Shown: positions 5,969 to 24,514 of the stretch, piece after piece
Position numbering within the stretch: position 1 is the first letter of the stretch
Layout: each line of letters opens with the position of its first letter
Origin: Anaerolineae bacterium
GTDB taxonomy: Bacteria; Chloroflexota; Anaerolineae; JAAYZQ01
DNA length: 24,858 nucleotides
Assembly: GCA_016926595.1 (NCBI GenBank)
Contig: JAFGOG010000160.1
Location: forward strand, 1-24,858
Direction: 5' to 3'
Translations under genes and position numbers: made by a program
Notes under the pieces: model-generated
What the model saw: the letters and a program-made list of their open reading frames with translations, nothing else
Databases searched by the model: none
Told to the model about the DNA's origin: nothing

Positions 5969-7144
5969 ATGCGCCGATTTGTCAGGACAACACTGAACCC
6001 GGCTGCCTATCATGGGCATGGCCAAAAACCGCCCTTCTTCGAAGGCTGGTATTACAAGGCCATCGACGCCAGCGAGCAGCACCGCTACGCCATCATCCCC
6101 GGCATCTTTTTGAGCGACGACCCGGACAAACAGCACGCCTTTGTGCAGGTGCTGGACGGCCGGACCGGCCAGGCCACCTATCACCGCTACCCGGCCAGCG
6201 AGTTCTGGGCGGCGGAAGGGGTGCTCGACCTGCGCATCGGCCCCAACCGGTTCACGCCCGATGGGCTGTCGGTGCAGATCGACACGCCAGAGCTGGCGAT
6301 GAGCGGCAAGCTGCACTTTGGCCCGGTCAGGCCCTGGCCGGTCACACTGGGTTCGCCGGGGATCATGGGCTGGTACGCCTGGATGCCGTTCATGGAGTGC
6401 TACCACGGTGTGGTCAGCCTGGATCACGGCATCGAGGGCAGGCTGACGGTGAACGGCCAGGCAGTCGATTTTGGCGGCGGCCGCGGGTATACCGAGAAGG
6501 ATTGGGGGCAGGCTTTTCCGCAGGCGTGGATATGGTACCAGACGAACCACTTTGAAGAGCCGGGGATCAGCCTGACCAGCTCGGTGGCGATCATCCCCTG
6601 GATCAGGCGCTCGTTTCCGGGCTTTATCACCGGGCTGTGGCATGGTGGAGTGCTGCACCGGTTCTCTACCTACACCGGGGCGTCGATCGAGCGGCTGGAG
6701 ATCACCGACCGGCAGGTGAGTCTGGCTGTGCGCGATAAGCACCATCGCCTAGAGATGGCAGCGACGCGGGCCGAAGGTGGGCTGCTGCACGCCCCCACAA
6801 CGGTCGATATGGGCCGGAGGATTGCCGAGACGCTGACGGCGACGGTCGAGGTCAGGCTGACAGAGGTCCCCCACAAAGGCGAACCCAACGGCCGCACCCT
6901 GTTTCAGGGTACCGGCCGGTACGCCGGCATGGAAGCTGCCGGCGACCTCGACCGGATGATCGAGATGGTGCGGATCCCGCCAAAAGTCCCCACGCCGTCG
7001 CGTTCCTCGCCCCGAGGCTCGGACTCGAGGAAAGGACGGGCGAGTAGGACGTCGAGGAGCAAGCGCCTCGATCTGCTCAGGATCGCAGCTTTCCCCTGGT
7101 CAAAGAGGCGAAAATCCCCCCCACGCAGAAAACGGTCAAGATAG
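5969..7144 (+). CDS. Tocopherol cyclase-like protein (PF14249 family), with odd C-terminal tail
   Basis: The 391-residue product resembles the tocopherol cyclase-like family (VTE1-related beta-barrel proteins), found in many non-photosynthetic bacteria where the role is unknown. Characteristic pieces are N-P-A-A-Y-H-G near residue 10, PPFFEGWYYKAID, RYAIIPGIFL, GIMGWYAWMPFMECYHGVVSLDH, GGGRGYTEKDWGQAFPQAWIWYQTNHF and GFLHGG-like GLWHGGVLHRF. No signal peptide is evident. The recognisable family sequence ends at about residue 335 (near 6980). The remaining 55 residues are Arg/Ser/Pro-rich, contain two DNA palindromes, and overlap the 3' end of the opposite-strand MFS gene by 68 bases, so the true stop may have been lost. 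The ribosome binding site is weak (AGG next to ATG). It probably shares the transcript of Sec-redoxin 1, 50 bases upstream. Confidence 0.8.
   Translation: MRRFVRTTLNPAAYHGHGQKPPFFEGWYYKAIDASEQHRYAIIPGIFLSDDPDKQHAFVQVLDGRTGQATYHRYPASEFWAAEGVLDLRIGPNRFTPDGLSVQIDTPELAMSGKLHFGPVRPWPVTLGSPGIMGWYAWMPFMECYHGVVSLDHGIEGRLTVNGQAVDFGGGRGYTEKDWGQAFPQAWIWYQTNHFEEPGISLTSSVAIIPWIRRSFPGFITGLWHGGVLHRFSTYTGASIERLEITDRQVSLAVRDKHHRLEMAATRAEGGLLHAPTTVDMGRRIAETLTATVEVRLTEVPHKGEPNGRTLFQGTGRYAGMEAAGDLDRMIEMVRIPPKVPTPSRSSPRGSDSRKGRASRTSRSKRLDLLRIAAFPWSKRRKSPPRRKRSR
7003..7032. repeat. Palindromic hairpin in the tail of the tocopherol-cyclase-like gene
   Basis: TTCCTCG (7003-7009) is the exact inverted copy of CGAGGAA (7026-7032). 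An inner inverted repeat (CCGA 7012-7015 with TCGG 7019-7022) extends the foldback. It sits between convergent genes, but there is no T-run, so an intrinsic terminator is not supported. Confidence 0.6.
7052..7071. repeat. Second palindromic hairpin, just beyond the MFS stop
   Basis: TCGAGG (7052-7057) pairs with CCTCGA (7066-7071) around an 8-base loop. It uses the same TCGAGG core as the neighbouring palindrome and lies five bases past the MFS gene on the minus strand. Confidence 0.55.
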
Positions 7145-21122: not shown

Positions 21123-21153
21123 CTCTACCCAAATTTGCCCGAAGGAGATGCCC

Positions 21154-21942
21154 ATGAAGCCTCAGGTTGGAATGCTAGCCCCAGATTTCACGCTCAAGAG
21201 CCATCAGGATGACACCGTGCAGCTCAGCGAGTACCGGGGCCGACACAATGTCTTGATTGCCTTTTTCCCCCTGGCCTGGACTCCAGTCTGAACGAACCAG
21301 ATGCCTTCTTACGAGCAGGATCTACGCAAGTTTGAAGGCTACAATACCCAGGTGCTGGGTATCAGCGTCGATCATGTTCCATGTCTAAAAGCGTGGGCCG
21401 AGAGTCTGGGCGACATCAGCTACCCACTCCTCAGCGACTTTTGGCCGCACGGTGCCGTCGCCCAACAATACGGTGCCTTTCGACAAGAGGCTGGCCATAG
21501 CGAGCGCGCCCTGTTTGTCATCGACAAAGAGGGCATCATCCGCTACATCGACATACACGAAATCAGCCAACAGCCGGACAACGAGCATGTCTTCCAGGCC
21601 CTGCGTGAGATCGAGCCACAGGCCACCATCGTAGAAGACTCGGAACCGCGCAAGATTCCGGTCCAAGTAGTCCGGCCCGGCCCAACTGCCCAGCCAGCTC
21701 GACCGCGGTCGGTGGTCATGTATTGCCGTCCAGGCTGCATCGACTGCCGGATGGCCAGGAATTTTCTCGACCAAAGAGGTGTGGCTTATACCGAGATCGA
21801 CATCCGGGCCGACCCCCAGGCCGAAGCCCGCCTCCGCAAGTGGACCGGCGGCCCGCTCATTACGCCAGTGTTTGATATCGACGGCAAGATCATCATCGAT
21901 TTCAAGCGCGCTGAACTTGAGCAAACGTTGAGCCTGAAATAG
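21154..21942 (+). CDS. Selenocysteine peroxiredoxin-glutaredoxin fusion (UGA at 21289-21291)
   Basis: Read through one in-frame UGA, the gene encodes 262 residues. The N-terminal part (1-160) is an AhpE/BCP-like peroxiredoxin: APDFTLKSH, LSEYRG, then the active site FFPLAWTPVU46TNQMPSYE, which is the peroxiredoxin signature P-x-x-x-T-x-x-C with selenocysteine as the peroxidatic residue. Cys77 (DHVPCLKAW) might resolve it. After a Pro-rich linker (about 161-186) comes a glutaredoxin/NrdH-like domain: YCRPGC195-I-D-C198 and the cis-Pro segment ITPVF (Pro238). A fused glutaredoxin would let the enzyme be reduced in cis by glutathione or a related thiol. ATG 21154 has AAGGAG six bases upstream; the frame is unbroken apart from the UGA up to TAG 21940-21942. 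It has its own promoter, a SECIS-like hairpin and a terminator. Prx-Grx fusions are known in some bacteria with cysteine. Confidence 0.93.
21303..21339 (+). promoter_or_regulatory. Putative bacterial SECIS hairpin of Sec-Prx-Grx
   Basis: GCCUUC (21303-21308) pairs perfectly with GAAGGC (21334-21339), starting 11 bases after the UGA, as in E. coli fdhF. Within, UU-A-CG (21309-21313) can pair with CG-C-AA (21325-21329) around an 11-base loop that starts A-G and contains GG (21318-21319). The bulge at 21330-21333 is unpaired. Fold drawn by hand. Confidence 0.6.
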
Positions 21943-22048: not shown

Positions 22049-22095
22049 GAGTAGGTGCTGCGAGTGCACAAGCACTATATATTGTAGGTTTGTCG

Positions 22096-23136
22096 GTGCA
22101 GAATACAAAATGTGGGGTCTCCAGCCCCAAAAAGAACAGCCAAGTTAGCGCCAGGTGGTCCGGGCAGCCTGCTCGGCAACCCAGGATAGCAAGCGGCTGG
22201 ATACTGCTGTCGCTGCTACTGCTGCTCATCCTGGCTGCATGTGGTGGGGCACAGAGCGCAACCGGCACAGCGCCAGCCTCCCCGGCGGTCACAAGCCTGC
22301 CCACAGCCACAGTGCAGCCGGCTACGCCCACCGCTACCTCGCCGCCGGTTCCCTTGGCCGCGATCGTCAACGGCCAGCCGATCCTCCTCGCCGATTATGA
22401 GCGGCGAGTAGCTCAATACGAGCAATCGATGCTGGCCCAGGGATTTGATCCCGGCACAGTGGAAGGCCAGGCGCGCCTAACTGAGATCCAGCAGGAAGTG
22501 CTGGACAATATGATCGACTCTGCCCTCGTCGAACAGGGAGCAGTCGGCCTGGGAGCAAGCATCAGCGATGCAGACCTGGAAGCCCAGATCATGGCCGACA
22601 TCGAGGCCGGTGGAGGGCAGGCAGCTTTCGACGAATGGCTGCAAGCCACAGGTCTGGCCCGTGAAGACTATAAACAAATGCTGCACGAGGCGTTACTGGC
22701 CCAGCGAGTGATGGACGCCGTCACCGCCAGCTTGCCCCAGGCAGCCGAACAGGTACACGCCCGCCAGATCGTCGTTGACAGCAAGGAGGTAGCCGAGCAG
22801 GTGTTGGCAGAGCTTCAGGTCGGAACCGATTTTGCGGCCGTAGCCCGGGAAAGGTCGACGGATCTGGCTACCAAAGACAACGGCGGCGATTTGGGTTGGT
22901 TTCCGCGCGGCCTGATTCCGCTGGAGCTGGAGAATCTGGCTTTTTCGTTACAGCCCGGCGAGATCGGCGGCCCGCTTCAACTGGGCGACGGCTATCACTT
23001 TGTGCAGGTGGTAGAACGCGACCCAGGCCGCGAGCTTTCGCCCGAGATGCAGGGCCAGTTGAGGCTTGTCCTCTTTGAGCGGTGGTTGGAAGAACAGCGC
23101 GCCCAGGCGATTATTGAGCGGTTGGTAGCAGAGTAG
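22096..23136 (+). CDS. SurA/PpiC-type peptidyl-prolyl isomerase lipoprotein
   Basis: The product (346 aa) is a foldase-like lipoprotein. A hydrophobic signal of about 15 residues ends in the lipobox LAAC (Cys49), after a positively charged N-terminus of about 33 residues. A short Thr/Pro/Ala-rich linker leads to a SurA-like N-domain (VNGQPILLADYERRV, then QEVLDNMIDSALVEQGA) and a parvulin domain at about 220-310 (VHARQIVVDSKEVAEQVL, GGDLGWFPRGLIPLELENLAF, GYHFVQVVER). The family helps proteins fold after export. GTG 22096 is the likelier start (AGG seven bases before); TTG 22090 is in frame but too close to it. The start remains uncertain. Confidence 0.85.
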   Translation: MQNTKCGVSSPKKNSQVSARWSGQPARQPRIASGWILLSLLLLLILAACGGAQSATGTAPASPAVTSLPTATVQPATPTATSPPVPLAAIVNGQPILLADYERRVAQYEQSMLAQGFDPGTVEGQARLTEIQQEVLDNMIDSALVEQGAVGLGASISDADLEAQIMADIEAGGGQAAFDEWLQATGLAREDYKQMLHEALLAQRVMDAVTASLPQAAEQVHARQIVVDSKEVAEQVLAELQVGTDFAAVARERSTDLATKDNGGDLGWFPRGLIPLELENLAFSLQPGEIGGPLQLGDGYHFVQVVERDPGRELSPEMQGQLRLVLFERWLEEQRAQAIIERLVAE

Positions 23137-23162
23137 ACAAGCAAACCACAATGTGGTATACT
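23134..23162 (+). promoter_or_regulatory. Sigma70-type promoter inside the parvulin gene stop
   Basis: TAGACA (23134-23139, the first three bases being the stop codon of the parvulin gene), 17 bases, then TATACT (23157-23162). Confidence 0.55.
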
Positions 23163-23182
23163 ACACTGGCGCGGGAGGCTCA

Positions 23183-24514
23183 ATGCCGTCAGATCGAAGA
23201 GGATTGATTTGGATACTGCTGGCTACAGCAGCACTCTTGCTGCTGATAGCCATCGGTGCCGTGTTGGCCTTCCTGGTGCTTCGCCAACGCCCGGTCACGG
23301 CCGCCAAGGGCTGGCAGGATCCAATCGCCGCTATCGCTCCCGACAAGATCGCTCCCGATCTGGCACTCTACCCCCTGGCCGGGGCTTTGGAATCGGAGAC
23401 GATTGACGCTGCCCTCGACAACGACGAGCTCCATACAGCATATGCAGCGCTCACGCTTGCATTCGACCTGCGCGACGAACAGCGCAGCGGCCGGCTGCTC
23501 CAGCTTGGCAGTCGATTTTCTGCTGCACAAGAGCCCGACATGGCCCGGCTGGCCTATCAGCAAGTATACGACTTGGCGATCCTCAGCCCGGAGATGAACG
23601 ACCCGCTCCGCACCGATGCCCTGTTGGCCGACGGCAAGAACTGGGCAGAGTTGGGCCATGAAGAAGAGGCAGGCAGAGCCTATGATCAGGTTTACACCAT
23701 CGCTGTCAAGAGCCCTTATCTTCAGGTCGCTTATCGCCGCGACCTGCTCACCAGGCTCGCCACAGTCTATGCCGACCTGGGCCAGACCGATAGGGCCGAC
23801 CTATGCCGCCAGCAGATAGCTACGCTGACCCAGGGATCCCAGCCCCAACTCTCCGGCCCGGTCGGCCAGGCCATGGAGCTGCTGGCAAACCCCCTGACGC
23901 AGGTCTCCTCGGCCGAGATTGGGGCATTGGAGGAGAACAGGCGCCAAGCAGCCTACAGTGTGCTGCAGGCGGCAGCCGGCGGGGCTGCGCCGCCATCCGA
24001 TCTGATAAACAACCTGGCCCAGGCTTTGAAAGCTGAAGACCAGGCTAAACTCGCCTTCTACCAGCAGGAGCGGGAGGCCACGACCCAACCCAGTCGACGG
24101 GTGAATGTGGACTGGTCCTTGATCGACTGGCTGATGCTCAAGTACAAAGTGGCCCTGCGTGGTTTTGGCCTGTCCATCGTGCCTGAATGGGAACAACAGG
24201 CCGCTGCGGTCCAGTCCGAGCTGAGCAAGGCATACGAGTCTTTGCGTTTCGATTATGAAGACCTGGTCACGTCACTGCCAGACGCCGCGTTGATGGAACC
24301 AGGCCGGTACGGGGTGCGGCGGATGTTGATCCTGGCCGGGCGATTGGGACAATACCCGAACTATGCTGAGCAACAATTAGCCGACAAGCTGCAAGAGGCC
24401 GCCAGGAACATGATCATTGCCGGTATGGTCGAGCCGTTGTACGTGGACATCCAGTCCGACAAGACAGGACTGTGGTTTCTTCTCAGCCCTGCGGATCAGT
24501 ATGGGTCACAGTGA
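23183..24514 (+). CDS. Membrane-anchored helical-repeat (TPR-like) protein
   Basis: The product (443 aa from ATG 23183, ribosome binding site GGGAGG four bases before) has an N-terminal membrane helix at about 8-35, so the rest is probably external. From about 70 to 220 it is built of helix pairs resembling tetratricopeptide repeats (SGRLLQLGSRFSAAQEPDMARLAYQQ-like units, in short: LQLGSRFSAAQ, ARLAYQQVYDLAI, AELGHEEEAGRAYDQVYTIA, ATVYADLGQTDRADLCRQQ). The C-terminal 220 residues are helical and unassigned, ending with a short beta-like stretch (VEPLYVDIQSDKTGLWFLL). No enzyme motif is visible. A role in protein-protein contact at the envelope is inferred. An upstream in-frame start at 23153 overlaps the promoter and is unlikely. 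Confidence 0.7.
   Translation: MPSDRRGLIWILLATAALLLLIAIGAVLAFLVLRQRPVTAAKGWQDPIAAIAPDKIAPDLALYPLAGALESETIDAALDNDELHTAYAALTLAFDLRDEQRSGRLLQLGSRFSAAQEPDMARLAYQQVYDLAILSPEMNDPLRTDALLADGKNWAELGHEEEAGRAYDQVYTIAVKSPYLQVAYRRDLLTRLATVYADLGQTDRADLCRQQIATLTQGSQPQLSGPVGQAMELLANPLTQVSSAEIGALEENRRQAAYSVLQAAAGGAAPPSDLINNLAQALKAEDQAKLAFYQQEREATTQPSRRVNVDWSLIDWLMLKYKVALRGFGLSIVPEWEQQAAAVQSELSKAYESLRFDYEDLVTSLPDAALMEPGRYGVRRMLILAGRLGQYPNYAEQQLADKLQEAARNMIIAGMVEPLYVDIQSDKTGLWFLLSPADQYGSQ

Follow-up and report, generated by a model that had tools for sequence, protein, structure and literature searches.

A likely selenocysteine peroxiredoxin fused to a redoxin domain in Anaerolineae, with a candidate two-hairpin RNA element behind its UGA codon

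The window, by which we mean the whole stretch of 24,858 nucleotides analysed here (contig JAFGOG010000160.1 of an Anaerolineae bacterium), holds a gene that joins a peroxiredoxin (Prx) to a redoxin domain in a single reading frame (Table 1). With its TGA read as selenocysteine (Sec), U46 is the sole recoded codon of the 262-residue translation, and its context, FFPLAWTPVU, fits P-x-x-x-T-x-x-U. The original prediction had set the UGA at the peroxidatic position of a P-x-x-x-T-x-x-C motif, for which translation gives both the coordinates and the motif as right, and had let the frame run on through the peroxiredoxin into a complete CxxC domain. Pfam agrees, with AhpC-TSA over residues 5-132 (126 bits, above the curated cut-off) and Glutaredoxin (PF00462) over residues 187-247 (49.8 bits against a cut-off of 22.9), the latter containing CIDC at 195-198. 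The first domain is assigned to the AhpE type on its AhpC/TSA domain, its PxxxTxxC/U motif and its AhpE fold, but it carries the fusion-associated Cys77, whereas the 1-Cys mechanism expects no resolving cysteine.

Table 1 Features of the fusion locus and other genes of the window
Feature	Position in window	Strand	Basis or remark
Tocopherol-cyclase-like protein (PF14249)	5969-7144
AAGGAG, Shine-Dalgarno-like	21142..21147	+	6 nt ahead of ATG; read in the sequence
Sec-peroxiredoxin/redoxin fusion gene (Sec predicted)	21154..21942	+	262 codons and TAG stop, single in-frame TGA; homologous fusions in other genomes
AhpE-type peroxiredoxin domain	21166..21549	+	Pfam match over residues 5-132; fold covers 1-155
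TGA codon, residue 46, peroxidatic position, likely Sec	21289..21291	+	translation and comparison with homologues
Hairpin 1 (H1), stem GCCUUC/GAAGGC with inner pairs	21303..21339	+	apical loop 21319-21324 starts 27 nt after UGA
Hairpin 2 (H2), AUACCCAG-GUG-CUGGGUAU, 8 bp	21344..21362	+	GGU at 21351-21353; triloop starts 60 nt after UGA
Cys77 codon, candidate resolving cysteine	21382..21384	+	within helix 75-84 of structure model; fusion-associated
Flexible linker, residues 163-181	21640..21696	+	pLDDT < 50
Glutaredoxin-fold redoxin domain, residues 187-247	21712..21894	+	nearest PDB sequences of thioredoxin/NrdH-redoxin type
CIDC motif, residues 195-198	21736..21747	+	both Cys invariant in 56 aligned sequences
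PPIC-type isomerase gene and unnamed 453-aa protein	22090-24514		downstream of fusion; syntenic in G025

Both downstream genes also adjoin the fusion in G025, the genome of the window's nearest relative, at 50% identity each; neither the PPIC-type isomerase nor the 453-residue protein has an evident redox link. Upstream of the fusion, the one G025 open reading frame compared is unrelated. Elsewhere in the window, the strand opposite the tocopherol-cyclase-like gene carries, upstream of it, a GH127 arabinofuranosidase gene and one of the penicillin amidase family.

A database search for further fusions of this kind, which the original prediction had called for, uncovered a family. In a sample of 396 genomes from the class of Ornatilinea apprima P3M-1, 87 have a match, and 32 of these 87 contain full-length fusions; in every one of the 32 (all 32 positions read) there is one internal stop, it is TGA, and it falls on the peroxidatic codon. 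From named genome records 80 loci were kept out of a larger number of matches, and at least 12 cover the whole fusion. Codon 46 in these 12 is TGA in seven (L001, L002, L003, L008, L009, L011 and L004, from O. apprima P3M-1) and TGC or TGT in five (L005, L006, L007, L010 and L012), and the in-frame UGA therefore aligns with Cys in homologues, the pattern that marks a selenoprotein. Duplicates were dropped (L102, equal to L002; L111, equal to L004; L153, equal to L045), and 36 distinct fusion loci share TGA at codon 46. Among the best 120 of 7915 database relatives, 114 start with MPSY right after the UGA, the window's own piece included. Hence these database entries are pieces, and many of the best-listed ones bear the name glutaredoxin.

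A tree of 45 proteins groups the window sequence with L093 and L094. The Cys rows require two changes and are nested inside TGA branches, four of the five Cys fusion loci forming a single clade. Because the outgroup, four solo (unfused) proteins, was hand-picked from TGA rows, a Sec-to-Cys direction rests mainly on the L005/L006/L007/L010 clade, which is nested beside the TGA row L009.

The Sec machinery goes with the TGA allele in the named records, where SelB exceeds its cut-off in seven of seven TGA fusion genomes versus one of five Cys fusion genomes (Fisher p 0.010), though four of those Cys genomes belong to a single clade. Within the class, SelB is found in 30 of the 32 genomes with fusions and in 313 of all 396, so that its presence there says little. 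tRNA-Sec passes its cut-off in six of the 12 named-record genomes, namely five TGA genomes and the one Cys genome that has SelB, with scores of 68-75 bits against a cut-off of 47, a level that 5 of 14 control genomes, Caulobacter among them, reach as well; in the TGA fusion genomes G009 and G011 it stays below the cut-off. G025 has selA, selB and tRNA-Sec. The two fusion genomes without SelB over the cut-off, G061 and G262, carry selA and tRNA-Sec; G061 has a piece of SelB, and G262 (TGA fusion; L106, L211, L212) yielded no SelB at 1e-30, nor any near its selA or tRNA-Sec. Those two G262 genes sit on a contig of 5.35 Mb. In G303, whose TGA match covers residues 5-205, searches for SelB, selA and tRNA-Sec gave no hit.

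Behind the UGA, the mRNA can fold into two hairpins, H1 and H2, which we evaluated in 58 Sec-Prx genes (57 distinct), whose coding alignment 3' of the UGA is gapless. H2 is paired in 96.5% of cells, with a covariation score of 0.355 versus 0.144 when shuffled, a value reached by none of 500 shuffles. All eight H2 pairs form in 49 of the 58 genes. Pooled synonymous resampling leads one to expect 4.6 such genes on average (maximum 13 in 2000), and permuting codons among sequences that share the residue leads to 33.5 (maximum 41 in 2000). The codons at 19 and 23 after the UGA are coupled, as ACC-GGT in 29 genes, GCC-GGC in 14, AGC-GCT in eight and other combinations in seven; AGC-GCT changes both amino acids, so H2 pairing holds even then. 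GGU is present in H2 in 54 of 58 genes. H1 pairs in 71-74% of cells in either of two registers; both were counted and neither pairs all sequences. The RNAalifold consensus drew H2 only, as the lower H1 stem shifts from one of these registers to the other. At the H1 consensus loop position G occurs in 42 of 58 genes and G[G/U] in 2 of 58. For the whole two-hairpin structure, the number of pairs with both sides changed, one of five measures, is unexceptional in two of the counts (53 and 36 of 500 shuffles).

The folds belong to the TGA alleles. Against a synonymous-codon null of 60 resamplings per gene, the 36 TGA fusions give mean z values of -2.80 for H1, -2.77 for H2 and -3.33 for both, versus -0.58 for control segments of the same genes, and four solo Sec-Prx genes give -2.35, -2.28 and -2.85. 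The five Cys fusions give +0.29, -0.32 and +0.21, with no two-hairpin signal above shuffles. Single genes scatter in this test: L004 has no signal, and in a few control segments z is -3 or lower. Counted outward from the loop, at least five contiguous H2 pairs form in 39 of 43 TGA loci (two duplicates included) versus three or fewer in all 67 Cys loci. Among 40 further regions from the class, eight TGA loci have eight or nine H2 pairs and 20 Cys loci at most four; the other 12 were read separately, and eight of them are TGA loci with eight H2 pairs. In total, H2 is absent from its fixed place in 87 of 87 Cys homologues. Elsewhere near the site, three of the last 20 Cys loci (L161, L168, L169) form different hairpins, of 8-10 pairs, which indicates that the fixed place counts and that hairpins as such are not rare. 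H2 fails in L004, L071 and L075, and in L104 its top pair is missing. O. apprima P3M-1 is a case of its own: it has SelB, tRNA-Sec and a TGA fusion, yet L004 5133-5210 contains no H2 and a weak H1; perhaps this gene relies on another kind of SECIS or is on the way to losing its element. From these sequence comparisons, the fusions are a real selenoprotein family, in which Sec insertion and catalysis are predicted, and UGA46 of the fusion gene is likely read as Sec.

H2 extends beyond the fusion and beyond the phylum, being found at the same offset in Tumebacillus (L060, Bacillota) and in the Sec-Prx of a distant deltaproteobacterium MAG (L040 8184-8261). Some 3 kb separate the latter gene (L040 8025-8600) from an AhpE-like gene of the Cys type. 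A covariance model built on the two hairpins matches 58 places in 53 of the 396 class genomes, among them those of L137 and L174, and all bar two coincide with known peroxiredoxin matches; the two, in G378 and G196, are broken and truncated peroxiredoxin frames. The one in G378 (L205) is a peroxiredoxin frame with a TGA that breaks soon after the H2 place. As the model holds coding signal, it cannot show that the element is absent from other selenoprotein families. Further variants were seen among the solo proteins. L209 and L210 (G351 and G023) are divergent solo Sec-Prx, with FTDTU and FTGGU, that have an H2-like helix, in L210 with one inner C-G pair that by eye reads U-A. A second solo Sec-Prx subfamily (L136, L143, L144 and L148-L152), with FAFTAxUDKQ or similar, has an H2 stem of other sequence, mostly AUAGCCAG/CUGGCUAU. 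L075, on a MAG contig labelled Bordetella parapertussis, is a TGA AhpE-like gene without H2, and we suspect the label to be wrong.

How do these hairpins compare with known Sec signals? The bacterial SECIS model, as given in the Fig 2 legend of PMC13188914, sets the loop 16-37 nt after the UGA, with G in its first two positions, in most cases G[G/U], and a minimum free energy of -7.5 kcal/mol or below; according to the accessible part of that 2026 review, the putative SECIS of certain genes do not fit these rules and suggest separate classes. By the spacing rule H1 falls within the range at 27 nt and H2 fails at 60 nt. Energies in the window are -14.1 kcal/mol for H1 and -10.2 kcal/mol for H2, both below -7.5, and H1 by itself thus satisfies the spacing rule and, in the window, the energy rule. 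Rfam returned no SECIS family, either for the whole window at gathering score or for 21250-21420 at E values up to 10.

As a comparison from the same hosts, we used FdhA in 24 genomes, of which 23 carry a TGA fusion and G012 carries a Cys fusion. The open-frame search gave 22 matches, of which six are spurious frames and 16 are sites with the CAR-L/T-U motif. GGUCU lies 18 nt after the UGA in 15 of the 16 and is drawn as a loop in 11 of 16 folds. The SECIS region of FdhA gives a z of only -0.58, and the synonymous test can therefore miss a SECIS. No helix of five or more pairs occurs at the H2 register in the 16 sites. In three of them (L214, L215, L235) a hairpin of 8 bp, with five bases in its loop and without GGU, lies 52-72 nt after the UGA and nearly at H2's place. 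In these hosts peroxiredoxins are hence not alone in having a downstream hairpin, so that FdhA is a weaker control, and 8-bp hairpins of this sort are perhaps a wider feature of their selenoprotein mRNAs.

Two readings of the RNA follow. In the one that would be new, which we put forward tentatively and at less than even odds, the element is a bipartite SECIS of a new class. With the 37 nt of H1 left out, about 22 nt separate the UGA from H2's GGU, versus 18 nt in FdhA, which suggests a SECIS in two parts. H1 would act as a spacer: by taking up the stretch of mRNA that parts H2 from the UGA, it would let the covarying H2, 60 nt off in sequence, present its SelB-type GGU loop to SelB at about the usual bacterial SECIS distance. 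Such an element would be kept in the Sec-Prx of Chloroflexota, Bacillota and a deltaproteobacterium, would go together with the choice of amino acids (Thr/Ala...Gly or Ser...Ala), and in Anaerolineae would drive a selenoenzyme with its own reductase domain. In the other reading, which is plausible without reaching an even chance, H1 alone is the SECIS and is read by SelB as usual, with H2 an accessory, for example an obstacle that delays the ribosome and tips the balance from release towards Sec insertion. The H1 loop lies within 16-37 nt of the UGA, its window fold is below -7.5 kcal/mol, its stability in TGA fusions exceeds that of the synonymous null, and the three FdhA hairpins without GGU have the look of accessories. 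Against this, G[G/U] stands at the H1 loop position in so few genes (2 of 58, versus 54 of 58 with GGU in H2), and H2 is the better kept helix (96.5% versus 72.9% of cells paired).

On the protein side, Cys77 is the residue that sets the fusions apart. It is present in 42 of 43 full-length fusions versus 10 of 99 solo peroxiredoxins (67 in a first set, brought to 99 by a second), solo rows of differing spacing in the first set having been read at a shifted column with a few residues possibly misplaced. In solo Prx of the Sec type it occurs in 1 of 16. The L008 fusion has Gly at position 77. Three loci (L137, L158, L174) without a readable residue 77 were left out of the count, and L172 and L173, TGA matches that aligned below full length, were left out of the 43 fusions. 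Cys77 tracks the fusions, and a Sec46-Cys77 bond reduced by the fused redoxin domain is therefore likely.

The original prediction had this chain combine a Sec centre with its own glutaredoxin reductant. The Sec-Prx/redoxin fusion stands, on TGA conservation, Sec/Cys exchange, co-occurrence with SelB and RNA structure; a glutathione-type glutaredoxin is unlikely, the best PDB sequence matches of the redoxin domain being thioredoxin-like proteins and NrdH-type redoxins, with glutaredoxins further down (the structure-match lists were filled by the first, Prx domain). Gamma-glutamate-cysteine ligase was not found in 18 of 20 fusion genomes (GCS2 in 2 of 20, Glu_cys_ligase in 0 of 20; relatives, of unstated genome completeness). 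Glutathione is an unlikely donor, and as a general donor we reject it. From both lines of evidence, the glutathione assay proposed earlier probably uses the wrong reductant.

The interpretation we favour, and consider probable, is that of an AhpE-type Prx fused to an NrdH-like CxxC redoxin, its UGA likely read as Sec with the help of two conserved hairpins and its redoxin predicted to recycle the oxidised selenium. SelB and tRNA-Sec of the host would insert Sec at UGA46; Sec46 would reduce peroxide and turn into a selenenic acid, which Cys77 would attack to form a selenenylsulfide; and the tethered CIDC redoxin, in its own or a neighbouring chain, would reduce this bond. NrdH is recharged by thioredoxin reductase. 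The CIDC redoxin, too, would be recharged by an enzyme of the thioredoxin-reductase type, and not by glutathione.

The selenoprotein might be real and its redoxin nevertheless serve mainly other proteins or work via a small thiol, with free thioredoxin or a small thiol as the reductant of Sec46, in the manner of 1-Cys peroxiredoxins. Mycobacterium tuberculosis AhpE, the nearest relative with a solved structure, is called a 1-Cys peroxiredoxin in its title, the linker is flexible in the structure model, and ten of the 99 solo proteins have Cys77 too, but the tracking of Cys77 with the redoxin domain in 42 of 43 fusions and the invariance of both CxxC cysteines in 56 aligned sequences make this unlikely. 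Far less probable is a halt of the ribosome at UGA46 followed by a restart at the ATG at 21301, four codons after the UGA and with the frame open to 21942, as the start of a purposeful 213-residue redoxin-bearing protein. Of the 36 TGA fusions, only 6 have ATG at the codon of 21301 and the other 30 have an Ile codon there, and the restart piece would miss the peroxidatic residue as well as the beginning of the fold; we therefore reject it. That UGA46 is a true stop, by pseudogenization or sequencing error, leaving a fragment and a separate redoxin piece, accords with annotation pipelines calling the second half as its own protein among the best-listed database relatives, but is barely credible and was rejected in view of the same TGA in 36 distinct fusion loci, of Cys substituting for UGA46, and of an RNA structure kept in TGA and not Cys alleles.

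The Prx-Grx hybrid peroxidase PGdx of Haemophilus influenzae is Cys-type, Prx5-class and glutathione-dependent, and PrxU is a single-domain protein. The fusion is like PGdx in having a peroxiredoxin and then a glutaredoxin-fold domain in one chain; by PGdx's description it is set apart by its predicted Sec, its AhpE class and its NrdH-like redoxin. AhpE of M. tuberculosis (PDB 4x0x, 1xxu) is a one-domain Cys protein with Thr aligned at the place of Cys77, whereas the fusion has two domains and, as predicted, Sec. PrxU of Eubacterium acidaminophilum, which the accessible part of PMC13188914 gives as a Sec-containing peroxiredoxin, has Sec in PxxxTxxU as the fusion would, but the fusion scores 67.2 bits against the PrxU model NF040737, below its cut-off of 270. 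NrdH-redoxin (PDB 1r7h) and the thioredoxin-like chains 3zit/3zij, the best PDB sequence matches of the C-terminal domain, are of 75-78 residues and without a peroxiredoxin. The HUGP/GUXX-star fusion selenoprotein (NF045501) has other partners and matches residues 181-250 only (42 bits against a cut-off of 325). The Prx-PP2C fusion from GOS is a selenoprotein fusion too, but its Prx partner is a phosphatase-like domain (accessible part of PMC2398784). With ordinary bacterial SECIS, such as that of FdhA, the Sec-Prx genes share a hairpin just 3' of the Sec UGA and a G in the loop (consensus in the accessible part of PMC13188914), but GGUCU lies 18 nt after the UGA in FdhA and the GGU of Sec-Prx in a second hairpin about 60 nt off.

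The original prediction's view that the architecture is not commonly described fits what we found in print. Sec-Prx, Sec-Grx and selenoprotein fusions such as Prx-PP2C appear in selenoprotein surveys (PMC13188914, PMC1794560, PMC2398784, PMC1088965), whose accessible parts contain no Prx-Grx fusion. The literature searched, made up of titles and abstract openings with subscription journals mostly outside it, held neither a Sec-Prx-Grx fusion nor a second SECIS hairpin. As far as this search reaches, Sec-Prx/redoxin is a new domain architecture, and the two-hairpin element is a candidate for a new SECIS variant. We regard the bipartite RNA element, overlooked in the original prediction, as the stronger novelty of the two.

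The Sec-Prx family provides a covarying candidate for a SECIS class outside the present model, and its Cys alleles are natural knock-outs, which together make the question of distinct SECIS classes testable. In the fusion, a selenium peroxidase and its predicted reductant would come in one chain. It is frequent, in 32 of 396 genomes of the class, and its best database entries are pieces, so that a probable peroxide-defence enzyme goes unnoticed.
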